A DNA stretch of 38,040 nucleotides. It comes from Methanomassiliicoccales archaeon (GTDB lineage: Archaea > Thermoplasmatota > Thermoplasmata > Methanomassiliicoccales > UBA472). Positions 26,052 through 35,691 of the stretch are shown one piece after another. The notes beneath the pieces are model-generated. The model was given only the letters and a program-made list of their open reading frames with translations. It was not told the DNA's origin and did not search any database. How positions within the stretch are numbered: position 1 is the first letter of the stretch; every line of letters starts with the position of its first letter. Location of the stretch: NCBI GenBank assembly GCA_035527755.1, contig DATKZX010000004.1:85014-123053 (forward strand), in the 5' to 3' direction. The translations under genes and the position numbers were made by a program.

Positions 26052-26930
26052 ATGCCCATTGATCGTATCCTCAAGGTAGGACTGGTCCAGATGGCCATGT
26101 CCTTGGACGTTGAAGCTAACTTGCGCAAAGCGATCAGCATGTCCAAGGAGGCGGCCGATCGTGGAGCACAGGTGGTCTGCCTGCCGGAACTGTTCACCAC
26201 CCTGTACTTTCCAAGAGAGGAGGACCCCGAAGGCAATGCGGACAGGAGCGCCGTGCTGAACACCATACCCGGCATGGTGACCGAGGAGCTGTCCAGATTG
26301 GCCCAGGATACGGGAGCGATCGTCATCGGCGGTTCCATCTATGAGGCAGCGGACGAGGGGCTGTACAATACCGCCACCGTTTTCGAGAAGGACGGCCGTT
26401 ATCTGGGTAAATATCGTAAGACCCACATCCCCCATGATGAGTATTTTTACGAACAGCACTACTTCGATGCCGGAGATACTGGGTTCCAGGTCTTCGAGAC
26501 CTCGGTCGGACGTCTGTCGGTCCTCATCTGTTACGATCAGTGGTTCCCTGAGGCCGCCCGGTCCGTAGCTCTCATAGGGGCGGAGATGATATTCTATCCC
26601 ACGGCCATCGGCACGGTACTGGGAATTGAACAGACCGAGGGCGATTGGCAGCAGGCCTGGGAGAACGTCATGCGGGGGCACGCCATCGCCAATGGCACAC
26701 CGGTGTGCGCCGTCAACAGGGTCGGCATCGAAGGAGATTCGGAGTTCTTTGGCGGGTCCTTCATCTGCGATGCCTTCGGGAAGACCCTGGCCAGGGGAGG
26801 ACGGGGCGAAGAGATCGTTTTGGCCGATGTCGACATGGACCACGGCCGAAAGATCCGCGAAGGTTGGAGGTTCTTTCACAACCGCCGCCCGGAACATTAT
26901 GGCCGCCTGGTGCAGAGGACAGGTCCTTGA
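26052..26930 (+). CDS. aguB: N-carbamoylputrescine amidohydrolase
   Basis: This 292-residue nitrilase-superfamily enzyme converts N-carbamoylputrescine to putrescine, CO2 and ammonia. The catalytic triad is visible: Glu46 in LPELFT, Lys123 in KYRKTHIP and Cys160 in LICYDQWFPEAAR. YFYEQHYFDAGDTGF and SEFFGGSFICD are close to the plant and bacterial enzymes. The gene is followed after 12 bases by agmatine deiminase, which makes its substrate and strengthens the assignment over a general omega-amidase. Confidence 0.92.
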   Translation: MPIDRILKVGLVQMAMSLDVEANLRKAISMSKEAADRGAQVVCLPELFTTLYFPREEDPEGNADRSAVLNTIPGMVTEELSRLAQDTGAIVIGGSIYEAADEGLYNTATVFEKDGRYLGKYRKTHIPHDEYFYEQHYFDAGDTGFQVFETSVGRLSVLICYDQWFPEAARSVALIGAEMIFYPTAIGTVLGIEQTEGDWQQAWENVMRGHAIANGTPVCAVNRVGIEGDSEFFGGSFICDAFGKTLARGGRGEEIVLADVDMDHGRKIREGWRFFHNRRPEHYGRLVQRTGP

Positions 26931-26942
26931 GGTGATGGTTCG

Positions 26943-27983
26943 ATGAAAACGCCCTGTTCGTTAGGATATTACATGCCGGCCGAATGGTCTAAACATGAGG
27001 CTACCTGGCTTTCCTGGCCGAAGAACCCGCTGACCTTTCCCCCGGAGGTGCTGGGGGAGGTGGAAGAGATCTTTGCTCATATGACCGCCGCCCTAAGCGG
27101 CGCTGAACTGGTGAAGATACTGGTGGACGACGCCGAGGCCGAAGAGCATGCTTTCAAGAAGGTCGCCAAGGCCGGGGCGGACATGGGCAAGGTCCGGTTC
27201 CTGCACATCAAGAGCGCTGACGTTTGGATCAGGGACTATGGCCCGACATTCCTCCTGCATCGACAGACCGGAAAACGAGCGGCGGTGAAATGGCAGTTCA
27301 ACGCCTGGGGAGGCAAATACGACGACCTGCTGTACGACGATGTGACCGGTAAGGATGTCGTAGAGAGCTCTGGAAGCAAGTATTTCGAGCCAGGGATAGT
27401 AATGGAGGGCGGTGCCATCGACGTTAATGGTCAGGGCATGGTATTGACGACGGAGCAATGCCTGCTCAATAAGAACCGCAATCCTCATCTCGATCGTCAT
27501 CAGATCGAGGAATATCTGCATCGATACATTTCCACGACGGATGTGGTCTGGTTATCGTCTGGCATCGAAGGTGACGATACCGATGGCCACGTGGACGATT
27601 TCGCCAGGTTCGCTAGCAGTACGGCGGTCCTATGCGCCCACTCCGATAAAGGGGAGAACGCCCCGGTCCTATGCAGGAACTGGAAGATATTGGAGCAATG
27701 GAAGGACCGCGCTGGACTGGAATTGCAACGGTTGCCCATGCCAGCGCCCCTGTACCTGGAAGAGGAGGAACGGAACCTTCCGGCCAGCTACGCCAACTTC
27801 TACATCGGGAACAAAGTGGTGCTGTTGCCGGTCTTCAACGACCCCCAGGACCGCAATGCGATCGATATCGTGAGCTCTTTCTTTCCCGGAAGGGAGATCG
27901 TACCTATAATGGCCAGAGAGCTAGTGTACGGCTACGGCGGCATTCACTGCGTGACCCAGCAGGAACCGGCGGAACGGGATTGA
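26943..27983 (+). CDS. aguA: Agmatine deiminase
   Basis: This 346-residue enzyme of the peptidyl-arginine deiminase family converts agmatine to N-carbamoylputrescine. Seen: EWSKHEATWLSWP at the N-terminus, VWIRDYGPTFL, VMEGGAIDVNGQG, GDDTDGHVDDFARF with the catalytic His and Asp residues, and the nucleophile Cys336 in GYGGIHCVTQQEP. With aguB it forms a two-step route from agmatine to putrescine, agmatine coming from arginine by a decarboxylase not present here. The ATG lies 12 bases after the aguB stop. Confidence 0.94.
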   Translation: MKTPCSLGYYMPAEWSKHEATWLSWPKNPLTFPPEVLGEVEEIFAHMTAALSGAELVKILVDDAEAEEHAFKKVAKAGADMGKVRFLHIKSADVWIRDYGPTFLLHRQTGKRAAVKWQFNAWGGKYDDLLYDDVTGKDVVESSGSKYFEPGIVMEGGAIDVNGQGMVLTTEQCLLNKNRNPHLDRHQIEEYLHRYISTTDVVWLSSGIEGDDTDGHVDDFARFASSTAVLCAHSDKGENAPVLCRNWKILEQWKDRAGLELQRLPMPAPLYLEEEERNLPASYANFYIGNKVVLLPVFNDPQDRNAIDIVSSFFPGREIVPIMARELVYGYGGIHCVTQQEPAERD

Positions 27984-30389: not shown

Positions 30390-31274
30390 TCATTGCAAAA
30401 TACCACAACTGTCATCGACCGACTTCTGCCATTGGACGAAACGATCTGGATGAGCTTTAAAGGCCGTCAAGCACTCCTGTGAACAGAAATGGTAGGTGTT
30501 GCCGTCGAACTCGAGTTCCAGGGACTTCTTACCATTGACACCGATGCCGCAGACCGGGTCATTATCCGTCCGGCGTGCTCTTCCTACCATGATCTGCGCG
30601 CCCATACGATAGCAATTTACGGTGACGTTGGCCCCGACCCGGCGAAGCTTGGGCTCGTTCTTATCGTCCTCCACCTCACTGATGATTATTAGGTCGGGGT
30701 TCATGCTGCGGGCGGTGATCACCGCTACCATGTTGGGAGGGTCTTTCATGGCCGCTATCAGCCCCTTGGCATGCATGATGTCGGCCTTACGCAACGCCTC
30801 TTCGTCCTCGGCGTCCCCCCGAATGACCGGGACCCCTTCGTCAACAAGGTCCTGAACCCTTTCCGGGTTCTTTTCGACCACCACGAACTTCTCCTTGCTG
30901 GCCTTCAATTTTTCAGCCACTTCCCGCCCCACGTTCCCATAACCGCAGATGATAAAATGGTCCTTCATCCTGAACCTCCTTTCCGGTAGACCCAATGCCG
31001 ATCTCAGGTCTCTGCTGATCATCAGATTGAACACCGCTTGCAGTGTGGATATTCCAGCGGCGATGCCCCCTATGGACAAGAACACGGCCACCATCTTGCC
31101 CTCACTAGTTACAGGTACGATATCCCCGTATCCCACTGTGGTGATGGTCATGACGGTCAGATAGAGAGCGTCCAATGGTTTGCTCCATAGGTCTTCAGTT
31201 AAAAGGAGACCAATGAATCCCCCTAATACGACCATCGTTAGGGCGATAATGGAGTAATACAGGTTGTGTCTCAT
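30390..31274 (-). CDS. Potassium channel with RCK domain and C-terminal YHS domain
   Basis: The 294-residue channel has TM1 (about 7-26), selectivity filter TVGYGD (46-51), TM2 (about 62-86), an RCK/TrkA-N Rossmann domain with GYGNVG (111-116) and the conserved VVEKNPERV strand, then, in place of the usual TrkA-C domain, a YHS domain (about 238-282): DPVCGIGV with Cys242, YHFC with Cys264 and QEC with Cys268. YHS domains bind metal in copper and heavy-metal proteins. The natural inference is a K+ channel gated by metal or redox state through YHS, with nucleotide binding at RCK. The C-terminus has one more Cys (Cys290). Confidence 0.9.
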   Translation of the reverse strand: MRHNLYYSIIALTMVVLGGFIGLLLTEDLWSKPLDALYLTVMTITTVGYGDIVPVTSEGKMVAVFLSIGGIAAGISTLQAVFNLMISRDLRSALGLPERRFRMKDHFIICGYGNVGREVAEKLKASKEKFVVVEKNPERVQDLVDEGVPVIRGDAEDEEALRKADIMHAKGLIAAMKDPPNMVAVITARSMNPDLIIISEVEDDKNEPKLRRVGANVTVNCYRMGAQIMVGRARRTDNDPVCGIGVNGKKSLELEFDGNTYHFCSQECLTAFKAHPDRFVQWQKSVDDSCGILQ

Positions 31275-31317: not shown

Positions 31318-33564
31318 TTATCGCCTACGTCGATACCATATCAGTATTAGAGCCGCCAAGGCGACCGTGGCCACCATACCGAGCAGGGGAAGGACCCACG
31401 ATGCCTCCGGCTCCTTTATTAGCGTCACATCACCGATTTCCATGTCCTGCCCGGGGAGAACCTGTATCTGTACTTCATTCACCTGATATCCATTTTTTAA
31501 GAGGACGATGGAATGGTTCCCGGGGGCGAGAAGGAGAGAGAAGCGCCCATCATCATCCACCTCCAGCATTGTTGCCGAGTTCTCTCCGAACACGACCTGC
31601 ACACCTGTCAAACCGTTCCCCTCCTCGTCCACCGCTCTACCGTACACCGTGGCGTTGGGGCCTTCTGTTCGAAAGGTCCATTGGAATTCGGTCATGCTGT
31701 TCCCGGCCAGGTCCTGACCGAGTACACGGACCTGATACTCAACATCGAAGTCCAGGACCATCGTCGATGTGAGGGTGCGGTCGTCCCACTCCCCCGTTCG
31801 CGTGACGTTGTTCACCGACACCATCACCGATCCTTGGTCCATATCCTCTGAGAAGGTGATGTTTATCTGGTCATCGTGGTCGACGGTCTGACCCCGAGGC
31901 ACGTACTCTATCACACTAGGAGGACTGAGGTCCGGGGTGATGTTCAGACCGGGGATGTTCACCAGTGGGAACGGGTCCTGGCAACCGGAGGGTATCAAGT
32001 ATGGCCGGTCCACGATTCCATCCTCGTTCTCATCTGGGGACACCCAGTCGGACCACAGGTTCCCTGTTCCGAAGTACCAGCTATTGTTCATGTCCCCGCA
32101 AAAGGCCTGCACCCGGCCCACTGAGTATGCCCGTCCCGAATCGTTATTGAAGAGCATGGCGTTGGCATCGATTACGTTGCCAGATCCGCTGGTAAGATAG
32201 ATGCCTTCGAAAGTGTTCCGTTCGAAGATGTTGCCATTCACCCGACAGTCATCTGAATTCCGCATCTCCAGACCATGCCGCAGATTGGTTTTTATGATAT
32301 TATCTTGCAGCAGAATATCTTGGCAACCTGAGACCACTATGCCATCGCTCCCCCCGTCCAAGTAACTGTTGTTCAGTATCTGGGAATCGTCCACGTGGAC
32401 CAGGTACATACCTTCCCCCAGGGAACCGCTCACCGAGTTCCCTATCGCTGACAGCCCTGTGATGATCTGATCGGCAGTGGTAGACGCTCTGATGCCACCG
32501 TCGCAATCGATGATGGCGTTGTCGCTGAGAGTGGTGTTCAGGACCGCCCCTGCGCCCAGATATATCCCCCAAGATGCGCTTCCTTTGTTCATCCGCATTA
32601 TGGTATTGTTCTGCACCAGATTACCTTGGCTGGGCGATATGTAGACGCCGTAGGTGCCATCATCGATCGAATTGTCGACGATGACGTTCAGGTCAGCTCC
32701 GCCCTCCAACCTTACTCCATAGGTATTATTGGACAAAGAGCTGTGGGAGACGATATTATCTCTAGCCTCAGGACCGAACCTTATGGCGAAAAGGCAATCG
32801 CTAACCTCGTTTTCCAGGAGCTGATTTAACGTCCCCCTCTCGACGAATATCCCGCCATCCCCAGATTGGTCCCTCACCTCGTTCCCTTGGACCAGATTGC
32901 CGGTGCAGCCTCTGTTGACCGCGGTCAGCGATATACCCGCGTGGCTGTTCCCAAACGCGACGTTGTCCTTCACAAATACTCCTTGGCTGTCCTCGACCAG
33001 TGTGCCTACACCGTTCCCTTCGAAAGTGTTATTGGAGACCTCACATGCGATCCTCTCACAATGCTGAAGATAGACACCGGCAAGATAATTATTGAGGAAC
33101 GAGGAACTGGACACCACCACGTTCTCGCAGTTGGCAACGGTGATACCTCGGGCGTTGAACTCGGCGTGGAGGTTGACTATCGTTCCGTTGGAGACGTTGA
33201 ACAGTATGACGCCGGAGCCACTGGCCTGAACGTTCAGATGCTCGCTCTCAGAGGTGTATGCATCGGTGACCGCACAATCGACGATACGGAAGTGCTTGGT
33301 GGTGTTAGCTATGAAAATACCGTGGTGCTGGCCGGTGGCATTGACCTGGACGTCGGTAAGCACGTACGGATCGGCCATGGTCCCGCTTCCGGTGAAGCCG
33401 GCAGCGAGGAATCCACTATCTCCCTCGATCACCAGGGGAGTGCTCGTCTCCGCCCCTGTTGAATAAGGGGAGAATACCAGCAGTATCATTGACACCACTA
33501 GAACGATGATCATGGACCTGATAAGAGCCCCCTTACCTTTCCGGTCCGTCATGGTGCAACCCAT
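31318..33564 (-). CDS. Large surface protein: NosD-type beta-helix, Ig-like and regulatory-like domains, C-terminal anchor
   Basis: This 748-residue exported protein has a signal sequence (basic MTDRKGKGALIR then a long hydrophobic stretch), a right-handed parallel beta-helix from about 90 to 500 built of NosD-like repeats (such as IFERNTFEGIYLTSGSGN), a bacterial Ig-like domain (about 545-640, ITFSEDMDQGSVMVSV), a carboxypeptidase-regulatory-like domain (about 645-710, GRAVDEEGNGLTGVQV) and a C-terminal membrane helix followed by RRRR. It is probably an anchored cell-surface adhesin or carbohydrate-binding protein. The start may be the ATG at 33552, four codons further in. Confidence 0.82.
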   Translation of the reverse strand: MGCTMTDRKGKGALIRSMIIVLVVSMILLVFSPYSTGAETSTPLVIEGDSGFLAAGFTGSGTMADPYVLTDVQVNATGQHHGIFIANTTKHFRIVDCAVTDAYTSESEHLNVQASGSGVILFNVSNGTIVNLHAEFNARGITVANCENVVVSSSSFLNNYLAGVYLQHCERIACEVSNNTFEGNGVGTLVEDSQGVFVKDNVAFGNSHAGISLTAVNRGCTGNLVQGNEVRDQSGDGGIFVERGTLNQLLENEVSDCLFAIRFGPEARDNIVSHSSLSNNTYGVRLEGGADLNVIVDNSIDDGTYGVYISPSQGNLVQNNTIMRMNKGSASWGIYLGAGAVLNTTLSDNAIIDCDGGIRASTTADQIITGLSAIGNSVSGSLGEGMYLVHVDDSQILNNSYLDGGSDGIVVSGCQDILLQDNIIKTNLRHGLEMRNSDDCRVNGNIFERNTFEGIYLTSGSGNVIDANAMLFNNDSGRAYSVGRVQAFCGDMNNSWYFGTGNLWSDWVSPDENEDGIVDRPYLIPSGCQDPFPLVNIPGLNITPDLSPPSVIEYVPRGQTVDHDDQINITFSEDMDQGSVMVSVNNVTRTGEWDDRTLTSTMVLDFDVEYQVRVLGQDLAGNSMTEFQWTFRTEGPNATVYGRAVDEEGNGLTGVQVVFGENSATMLEVDDDGRFSLLLAPGNHSIVLLKNGYQVNEVQIQVLPGQDMEIGDVTLIKEPEASWVLPLLGMVATVALAALILIWYRRRR

Positions 33565-33599
33565 GGAGATGACCGCTAATCAATATTTGTTGAGAATTG

Positions 33600-33674
33600 T
33601 GGAGCCACTGGAGGGAATTGAACCCTCGACCTACGCCTTACCAAGGCGTCGCTATACCTCTAAGCCACAGTGGC
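33600..33674 (-). tRNA. tRNA-Thr (anticodon GGT)
   Basis: On the minus strand from 33674: acceptor GCCACTG/CAGTGGC, anticodon stem ACGCC/GGCGT with loop TTGGTAA (anticodon GGT), T-arm GAGGG-TTCAATT-CCCTC, discriminator T, and encoded CCA at 33600-33602. Confidence 0.95.
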
Positions 33675-33768
33675 CTTGCTCGACCGAGAAACGGATGGTC
33701 GTTCATAAACCTTTTGTTGCTGGAAGTAAACAAAATCCTTTTCATTCCCATTACACTAGAGGTGAACG

Positions 33769-35691
33769 ATGAAGAAGGAGATGACGGCCTTCGACGTGGC
33801 GACCATGACGTCGGAGCTTCAGGGCATTTGCGGCGGGTTCCTGGACAAGATATTTCACTGGGAAGGCCGCAACGTGCTCATTAGGATCAATGTTCAGAGC
33901 GAGGGAAAGAAGGAACTGTTCCTGAAGGATGGGAAATGGCTGCACTTGGAGGCCGAACGTCCAGAGACCCCGGACACGCCTTCGGGATTCGCCGTGCATC
34001 TGAGAAAGGTGCTTAGCAATACCCGCATTCTGTCCGTATCTCAACGGGAGTTCGACCGCATCGTCACCATGGACCTGGCCAGCAAGGAGGGTCATTACCA
34101 GGTGATCTTCGAACTGATAGGCGAAGGGAACCTGATCCTGGTCCACGAGGGAAAGATCATCAATGCTCTGGAACAGAAGAAGTGGCGGCACCGAGACGTG
34201 ATCATTGGTGCTGAGTACGCCTACCCTCCTTCCCGTTTCGATCCTCGGAACGCTTCCTTGGAGGATTACGAAAAGGCCGTACTGGCTTCCAAATCCGATC
34301 TGGTGAGGACACTGGCCACATCAGTGAACCTGGGCGGTCAGTACGGTGAGGAGATATGCCTGCGCACCTCCCTGGACAAGGGACGGAAGGCGTCCTCCCT
34401 GACCCATGCGGAAATCGTCACCATCTATGAGGCGACCTTAGCCATGTTCCGTGAGCTCCGAGAGTCCCCAAGACCCTGCTTGGTGAAGGACGGAGAGGAC
34501 ACCGTCGATGCTACGCCCATCCCACTGCTGGTCAATTCCGGGTGGACCGCGCAGGACCTGCCTACACTGTCCCAGGCATTGGTCATGTTCCTGGCCCAAA
34601 GGAAGGCGGTCGTGGAGAAGAAGGACAGCGAACTAGAGCGGCTGCAGCGCCAGTTGGACCAGCAGATAAAGGGCATCGAGGCCACCGAAAGCGAAGCAGC
34701 GGTCCTACAGGCCCAGGGCGACCTGCTTTACACCAGTTATACCGAGGTCAACCTGACGCTGGGAAGAATGAAGGCGTTGGCCCAGAAGAACAACTGGGAG
34801 CATCTGAAGGAGGAGGGAGCGAAGATACCACTGGTGACCTCGGTGGATCCCCGGAAGAAGAGCTTCCACATGAAGGTGGGAGAGGAGGATGTGGCCCTCG
34901 ACTACGACGTTGGCATCGACGAGAACGCCAATCGTCTGTACACCCAGGCTAAGGAGCTGCGGGAGAAGACCTCCGGGGCTAGGACGGCCATGGATGAGAC
35001 CCGCCGGGCGATCGGGAAGAGAGTGGTCAAGGGAGAGAAGGAAGCGTTGCTGAACAAGGAAAAAGTGGCGCCGACCAAACGCTTCTGGTATGAGAGCTAT
35101 AAGTGGTTCCTCACCTCCGGAGGACGACTAGTGGTCGGCGGCCGGGACGCCAAGAGCAACGATCAGGTGGTGAAGAAACATCTGGGGGAGAAAGAGCGGT
35201 ATGCGCACGCGGACATGCATGGTGCCCCCTCCATTGTTCTCAAGAACGGAGCCGACGCTTCAGATGAGGAGATGAAAGAGGTCTGCCAGTTCGCTATATG
35301 CCATTCCAAGGCCTGGAACGCAGGGGCTGCCGAGGGTACTGCCTACTGGGTGTTGCCCGATCAGGTTTCCAAAAGGCCAGAGGCCGGTGAGTTCGCCCCT
35401 CGAGGGGCTTTTATAATCAGGGGCAAGAGGAACTACATCTACCACCTGCCGTTGGAGATGTTGGTGGCCGAACTGGAGGTCGAAGGGGCGCGAAAGGTCA
35501 TGTGCGCCCCCCGAGAGAGCGTCGGCGATCGTTCCGTAAAGTATGTGATCATCATCCCGGGAAAGACCCCCAGGGGGAAGATTTCATCGGCATTGGCCCG
35601 GGCGTTTCAGGTGCCAGAGGAGGAGATCTCCCGCATACTTCCGCCTGGAGACGTGGCCATCAAGGAAGCTCATGGAGTGATCATTGAGTGA
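33769..35691 (+). CDS. rqcH: RqcH / NFACT ribosome quality-control protein
   Basis: The 640-residue protein is the archaeal homologue of bacterial RqcH and eukaryotic NEMF/Rqc2, which binds stalled large ribosomal subunits and can recruit tRNA to add C-terminal tails. Seen: NFACT-N domain with Asp96-Arg97 in REFDRIV, the DR pair needed for tailing; a coiled-coil middle (about 280-345); and NFACT-R (DUF814, about 430-560) with KRFWYESYKWFLTSGGRLVVGGRDA and HADMHGAPS. The ATG follows AGAGGTGA directly. It is flanked by tRNA-Thr and tRNA-Arg genes. Confidence 0.93.
   Translation: MKKEMTAFDVATMTSELQGICGGFLDKIFHWEGRNVLIRINVQSEGKKELFLKDGKWLHLEAERPETPDTPSGFAVHLRKVLSNTRILSVSQREFDRIVTMDLASKEGHYQVIFELIGEGNLILVHEGKIINALEQKKWRHRDVIIGAEYAYPPSRFDPRNASLEDYEKAVLASKSDLVRTLATSVNLGGQYGEEICLRTSLDKGRKASSLTHAEIVTIYEATLAMFRELRESPRPCLVKDGEDTVDATPIPLLVNSGWTAQDLPTLSQALVMFLAQRKAVVEKKDSELERLQRQLDQQIKGIEATESEAAVLQAQGDLLYTSYTEVNLTLGRMKALAQKNNWEHLKEEGAKIPLVTSVDPRKKSFHMKVGEEDVALDYDVGIDENANRLYTQAKELREKTSGARTAMDETRRAIGKRVVKGEKEALLNKEKVAPTKRFWYESYKWFLTSGGRLVVGGRDAKSNDQVVKKHLGEKERYAHADMHGAPSIVLKNGADASDEEMKEVCQFAICHSKAWNAGAAEGTAYWVLPDQVSKRPEAGEFAPRGAFIIRGKRNYIYHLPLEMLVAELEVEGARKVMCAPRESVGDRSVKYVIIIPGKTPRGKISSALARAFQVPEEEISRILPPGDVAIKEAHGVIIE

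Follow-up and report, generated by a model that had tools for sequence, protein, structure and literature searches.

Does the gene under study in the window (the whole stretch of DNA analysed here, 38,040 nucleotides from contig DATKZX010000004.1 of a Methanomassiliicoccales archaeon) encode a genuine potassium channel joined to a metal-binding YHS domain, and could such a protein couple K+ flux to metal or redox state? Both had been proposed by a model that saw the letters and their open reading frames (hereafter the sequence-only reading). The translation and domain searches bore out the architecture. The gene translates without an internal stop, and Pfam models placed an Ion_trans_2 pore (53.2 bits; cut-off 22.5), directly behind it a TrkA_N domain (115 bits; cut-off 23.8), and finally a YHS domain (52.7 bits; cut-off 30.3) in one protein (Table 1). 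Cys242, Cys264 and Cys268 of the YHS domain lie exactly where they had first been claimed.

Table 1. Coordinates of the channel gene and its features in the window
Feature	Position	Strand	Basis
Channel gene, 294 aa (K+ pore, RCK and YHS)	30390..31274	-	ORF, Pfam, orthologues
Ion_trans_2 pore (two transmembrane helices with a pore loop), residues 11-85	31020..31244	-	Pfam; predicted helices
Selectivity filter TVGYGD, residues 46-51	31122..31139	-	translation, orthologue alignment
Shine-Dalgarno AGGAGGT inside the gene, 5 bases upstream of the Met103 codon	30974..30980	-	sequence; 16S rRNA 3' end
Met103, from which a soluble 192-aa RCK-YHS product may start	30966..30968	-	codon conservation; translation inferred
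RCK Rossmann domain (TrkA_N), residues 107-220; contains the GYGNVG nucleotide motif and Glu134	30615..30956	-	Pfam; fold matches to GsuK, MthK
Cys221, end of RCK, family-specific	30612..30614	-	alignment with outgroup
YHS domain, residues 239-281; putative ligands Asp239, Cys242, Cys264, Cys268	30432..30560	-	Pfam, alignment, model
Cys290, C-terminal tail, invariant in 16 orthologues	30405..30407	-	alignment

A protein search of 61 genomes (the window's own and 60 relatives) recovered full-length matches running through the YHS domain in 16, with identities to the window protein from 86% down to 40%; one further genome (G017) yielded an additional YHS fragment at a contig end. Six further orthologues were submitted to Pfam, and all showed the same three domains above cut-off. 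The filter residues T46, V47, G48, G50 and D51 were invariant across the 16 orthologues, and the two-helix TVGYGD pore is predicted to conduct K+. TrkA_C had no Pfam match in the window protein or the six further orthologues, and the YHS domain occupies its place. The sequence-only reading had held that TrkA_C normally sits there; this stood for bacterial relatives, where TrkA_C followed TrkA_N in all five tested, but not for archaeal ones (0/3 at E<=1e-5), so the contrast is valid for the bacterial relatives only.

Structure searches with the pore and RCK returned GsuK (E 3e-13) and MthK (E 9e-13); in a second structure comparison both gave Z scores of about 20; the overall rmsd was 6-10 A, since pore and ring stand in different relative positions. 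These fold matches make gating of the pore by the ring the safest part of any functional interpretation. GsuK (PDB 4gx2 and 4gx1; NAD and ADP complexes) was the best match in both fold and sequence, but it has tandem RCK domains and no YHS. MthK (PDB 1lnq and others) shares the two-helix pore and the RCK ring, and its internal start at Met107 may have a counterpart in Met103 here, but it lacks a YHS domain, has a C-terminal lobe, and only two of its three Ca2+ residues are matched here. Bacterial channels of the form Ion_trans_2 + TrkA_N + TrkA_C (L037, L039, L041) resemble the window protein in pore and RCK at about 32-37% identity and share the identical MKDHFIICG entry to RCK; unlike it, they carry TrkA_C instead of YHS, and Cys221 is found in no outgroup row. 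The fused channel is a variant of the RCK-gated K+ channel and not a new kind of system.

In the YHS domain the putative ligands follow the pattern D-x2-C...C-x3-C, which is complete in the window protein, and they occupy the same places as those proposed for the YHS adenylyl cyclase of M. phlei (Asp178, Cys181, Cys204 and Cys208; excerpts of PMC4626032). There too the YHS domain lies C-terminally behind an effector, but the effector is a cyclase, not a channel, and it is for the cyclase that a Cu2+ switch is known. According to the same excerpts, Cu2+ together with Mg2+ switches the enzyme on, as shown biochemically, EDTA quenches it, and Zn, Fe(II), Fe(III), Cr, Co and Ni fail to switch it on; against a metal role, they also mention that the crystal structure of a toluene-4-hydroxylase YHS domain holds no metal (PMC4626032). 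In Pyrococcus, a TRASH domain has a part in the copper sensing of CopR (excerpts of PMC7830388). CopA-linked YHS domains and archaeal TRASH proteins (CopR, CopM) offer a related domain in copper handling, but one that is stand-alone, fused to an ATPase or fused to a DNA-binding domain, with no channel. When modelled alone, the YHS part reached a pLDDT of 78; its best Foldseek matches were YHS regions of phenol and toluene hydroxylases and eL24, none at E<=0.001, and a second structure comparison gave middling values (Z up to 6.5 over 62 residues, 3.9 A). The best sequence match of this part was likewise a phenol hydroxylase (E 0.00067).

Other YHS genes bear on the identity of the metal. In the window's genome an 830-aa CopA with two HMA domains (L153, 1671-4307, plus strand) is followed, directly after its stop and with no gap, by a 47-aa YHS protein, and in G045 a YHS ORF was also seen by inspection behind a copper-type ATPase; these arrangements favour copper. 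In G282, a 63-aa YHS protein ending in ENSC (L145, 1471-1662, minus strand) belongs to an apparent operon for Fe-S assembly (cysteine desulfurase, IscU-like, YHS, DUF59-like and uracil-DNA glycosylase, with names read from translations), so copper is not the sole candidate. On the origin of the channel's YHS domain, its profile scored L145 at 60.7 bits and the CopA-fused L126 at 59.0, which gave no decision between a CopA-linked and an Fe-S-linked source. Against a metal role, no metal-homeostasis gene beside the channel was conserved across the orthologue loci. Given the likeness to the M. phlei ligands and the position of the genome's other YHS protein beside a copper ATPase, a coupling of K+ flux to metal through the YHS domain is plausible by analogy.

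We envisage a tetrameric two-helix K+ channel whose gate is controlled by an RCK ring. YHS would serve in it as a TRASH-type treble-clef metal module, at the position held by the TrkA_C lobe in related bacterial channels. Two products are most likely, the full channel and a soluble RCK-YHS subunit from Met103, which may assemble into an octameric ring like that of MthK, bearing as many as eight YHS sites. A thiophilic metal would bind Asp239, Cys242, Cys264 and Cys268, the first candidate being copper, presumably as Cu(I) in this anaerobe. Binding would alter the packing of YHS on the RCK dimer hinge that carries Cys221, and the pore would open or close, so that K+ flux and membrane potential might respond to metal or thiol stress. 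We infer metal sensing, the metal and the direction of gating from these comparisons, and assign the explanation as a whole a probability of about 0.5; copper itself as the ligand is graded below it. Control of the ring by metal or thiols, exerted via the YHS domain, is the best-supported reading.

The main alternative is that the YHS domain is structural, a treble clef with constitutive Zn or no metal that replaces TrkA_C as a packing or assembly element, while the channel in truth responds to a nucleotide or NAD(H) at GYGNVG/Glu134 or to a divalent ion at Glu200/Glu202. The orthologue alignment speaks on both sides. Asp239 was invariant, and the D/C/C/C set was complete in 10 of the 16; the replacements are mostly other possible metal ligands, with Asp at position 264 in four full orthologues and the fragment L019 and His in one, which argues against a purely structural role. 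In a tree whose long outgroup branches leave the deep order unsettled, a branch (91/98) separates the four Asp264 members from the rest. The orthologue in G024 (L018, 11-865, plus strand), however, has Asn242, Thr264 and Asn268, and so has lost all three YHS cysteines, yet retains the YHS fold at 31.6 bits, barely above the cut-off of 30.3. This loss, with Asp or His at 264 elsewhere, leaves a metal role in every member unsupported. The G024 protein also has no Met103, and represents a natural metal-dead variant.

Conservation within the RCK domain is also compatible with a structural YHS. GYGNVG and Glu134 are conserved, and two acidic residues are family-specific: Glu200 (15/16 orthologues against 3/48 outgroup rows) and Glu202 (16/16 against 6/48), the outgroup being the 48 of 63 aligned rows with letters at positions 48 and 200, after the fragment L019 was dropped. 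These align with Glu210 and Glu212 of MthK, which together with Asp184 we take to be its Ca2+ site. The third position is Ala175 in the window protein, so that an MthK-type site is incomplete, and this counts against a divalent ion at Glu200/Glu202. Overall we regard a structural YHS as a real possibility, but not the one we would expect to prevail.

The second product of the metal-gated reading is suggested by the DNA before Met103, at the entry to RCK, which reads GAAAGGAGGTTCAGG-ATG. The 3' end of the 16S rRNA in the window's genome, located by a shorter sequence pattern after a longer one had no match, is TGGATCACCTCCT, which gives AGGAGGT a 7-base match with a 5-base spacer. GGAGG was present in 12 of the 16 orthologues, namely 12 of the 14 with ATG at Met103 and neither of the two without. 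Arg99 was encoded by AGG in 14/14 and Arg100 in 12/14 (26/28 together, whereas AGG accounts for 72 of the 235 other Arg codons in the 16 genes). The two ranked first and second in codon conservation among 66 comparable columns, whose median modal share was 0.45. Codon use in these genes predicts 1.2 rows with GGAGG when the rows, though related, are taken as independent. None of the 161 other in-frame internal ATGs had GGAGG at -15 to -4, and 3 of 17 outgroup ORFs with Met at the site had an SD-like sequence. Kept by codon choice in 12 of the 16, the Shine-Dalgarno suggests a soluble RCK-YHS subunit, as in MthK, where soluble RCK subunits start at the internal Met107 (excerpts of PMC2920069 and PMC9440719). 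Such a product is expected in most members, but not all. On the opposing side, excerpts of PMC2920069 report that removal of a putative internal start in E. coli Kch was without effect.

A different origin of the motif was considered, in which AGGAGG is a pause site that helps the pore helices to insert, or a chance product of the conserved Pro-Glu-Arg-Arg motif. It does sit shortly behind the second transmembrane helix (predicted, residues 57-85), and the Arg pair is conserved at the protein level. We nevertheless consider this unlikely in view of the AGG bias at the pair, the lack of GGAGG before the other in-frame internal ATGs, and its absence from both orthologues without Met103.

Two cysteines outside the YHS domain lend separate support to the redox half of the sequence-only reading, which had made no mention of them, and they alone do so. 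Cys221 was found in 16/16 orthologues and in none of the 41 outgroup rows having a residue there (27 have Pro); it and Cys290 are retained even in the orthologue lacking the YHS cysteines. The pair may add a further thiol site to the protein, at the RCK hinge and in the tail. The channel could on this evidence be a thiol or redox sensor. Disulfide formation or attack by electrophiles at Cys221 and Cys290, joined in most members by the YHS cysteines, would then gate K+ flux in a Kef-like manner. The strict conservation of both residues and the absence of Cys221 from the outgroup would fit. The cytosol of strict anaerobes is reducing, however, and we hold this reading to be improbable.

The gene shows the marks of a maintained locus. 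A profile of the 16 orthologues recovered the same 16 among 147 Methanomassiliicoccales genomes (E<=1e-30), and dN/dS of the YHS segment was 0.066-0.144 in six of seven pairs, the seventh being left out of the range for saturated dS. A convergent DUF1015 gene lies behind the channel at all 16 loci (adjacent in 14, with one ORF between in 2), and an NFACT gene on its other side at 13; the contig ends there in the other 3. At the DUF1015 locus of six channel-less relatives no channel remnant was detected at E<=0.1, and in five of these a window-type neighbour was kept on both sides or the far side, the sixth being cut by a contig end. In G005 (83678-84792) the DUF1015 gene beside the absent channel is split over two frames. 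From the conserved synteny, purifying selection and absence without remnant in those relatives, the channel gene looks vertically inherited, selected where present, and dispensable. That the fusion is a frameshift, a chimeric assembly or a read-through artefact, which had been named as grounds for refutation, is rejected as next to impossible, since it recurs in 16 separate genomes, at identities as low as 40%, alongside the same neighbours and under purifying selection.

The layout is also rare, as had been supposed. In a sample of 400 genomes of the class, 162 matched the orthologue profile (E<=1e-20) and 15 were fused orthologues; among the matches listed, every non-orthologue ended at or before profile position 250 of 296, and these thus have pore and RCK but no complete YHS. 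Across 389 genomes of the phylum, 77 matched, eight as orthologues, and none of the others extended beyond position 259. A YHS profile built from the orthologues found no further fused channel among 100 loci. The Pfam YHS model was matched in 124 of the 389 phylum genomes, and the matches listed were mostly short ORFs, long ORFs or fused channels (open frames of 303-350 aa); odd YHS ORFs of 357 and 457 aa proved on inspection to be C-termini of copper-type ATPases. Beyond the phylum, one contig scan (18 relatives) and a plasmid collection (best ten rows listed) were covered; of the 18 relatives in the scan, which included other phyla, only four were fused, all of them Methanomassiliicoccales. 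Independent YHS-channel fusions may exist in other phyla. The fused channel was seen in 16 of 147 genomes of the order, with none elsewhere in the class and phylum matches listed. No description of a YHS ion channel was found in the open-licence literature searched, where 13 papers mention a YHS domain and none, by its listing, concerns an ion channel; the fused channel is real, conserved and, as far as that literature goes, undescribed.

RCK rings sense Ca2+, other cations, nucleotides, NAD(H) and glutathione adducts. If the metal-gated reading is correct, sensing of a transition metal by way of a distinct small module would be a new kind of RCK input, and metal handling would be tied directly to K+ and membrane potential. 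A stronger form, namely a new class of ligand-gated K+ channel in which copper or another thiophilic metal on up to eight YHS domains of an octameric ring, assembled from two products of one gene by way of the conserved internal start, gates K+ flux directly and turns metal or thiol stress in methanogens into a membrane-potential and turgor signal, is put forward as a tentative idea that we rate as doubtful. The family offers natural variants for comparison: members with the full ligand set, Asp or His replacements, and one cysteine-less member. Its codon-preserved internal start also allows two-product RCK assembly to be compared outside MthK, a matter debated in the literature.

Several other features of the window were recorded. 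Between the channel and the NFACT gene lies a gene for a 748-aa beta-helix (NosD-like) surface protein (31318-33564, minus strand), the channel's upstream neighbour, seen at this place in the window's genus only. Its NosD annotation ('periplasmic copper-binding') was considered as copper context and set aside as evidence, because a generic Beta_helix model fits equally well (120 vs 122 bits) and the gene was seen there only in that genus. A small ORF at 33506-33772 (plus strand) is conserved across genera because a tRNA-Thr gene lies on the other strand (33600-33674). At 26052-27983 (plus strand), a carbon-nitrogen hydrolase adjoins a peptidyl-arginine-deiminase-family gene, presumably the usual pair of the putrescine route from agmatine.
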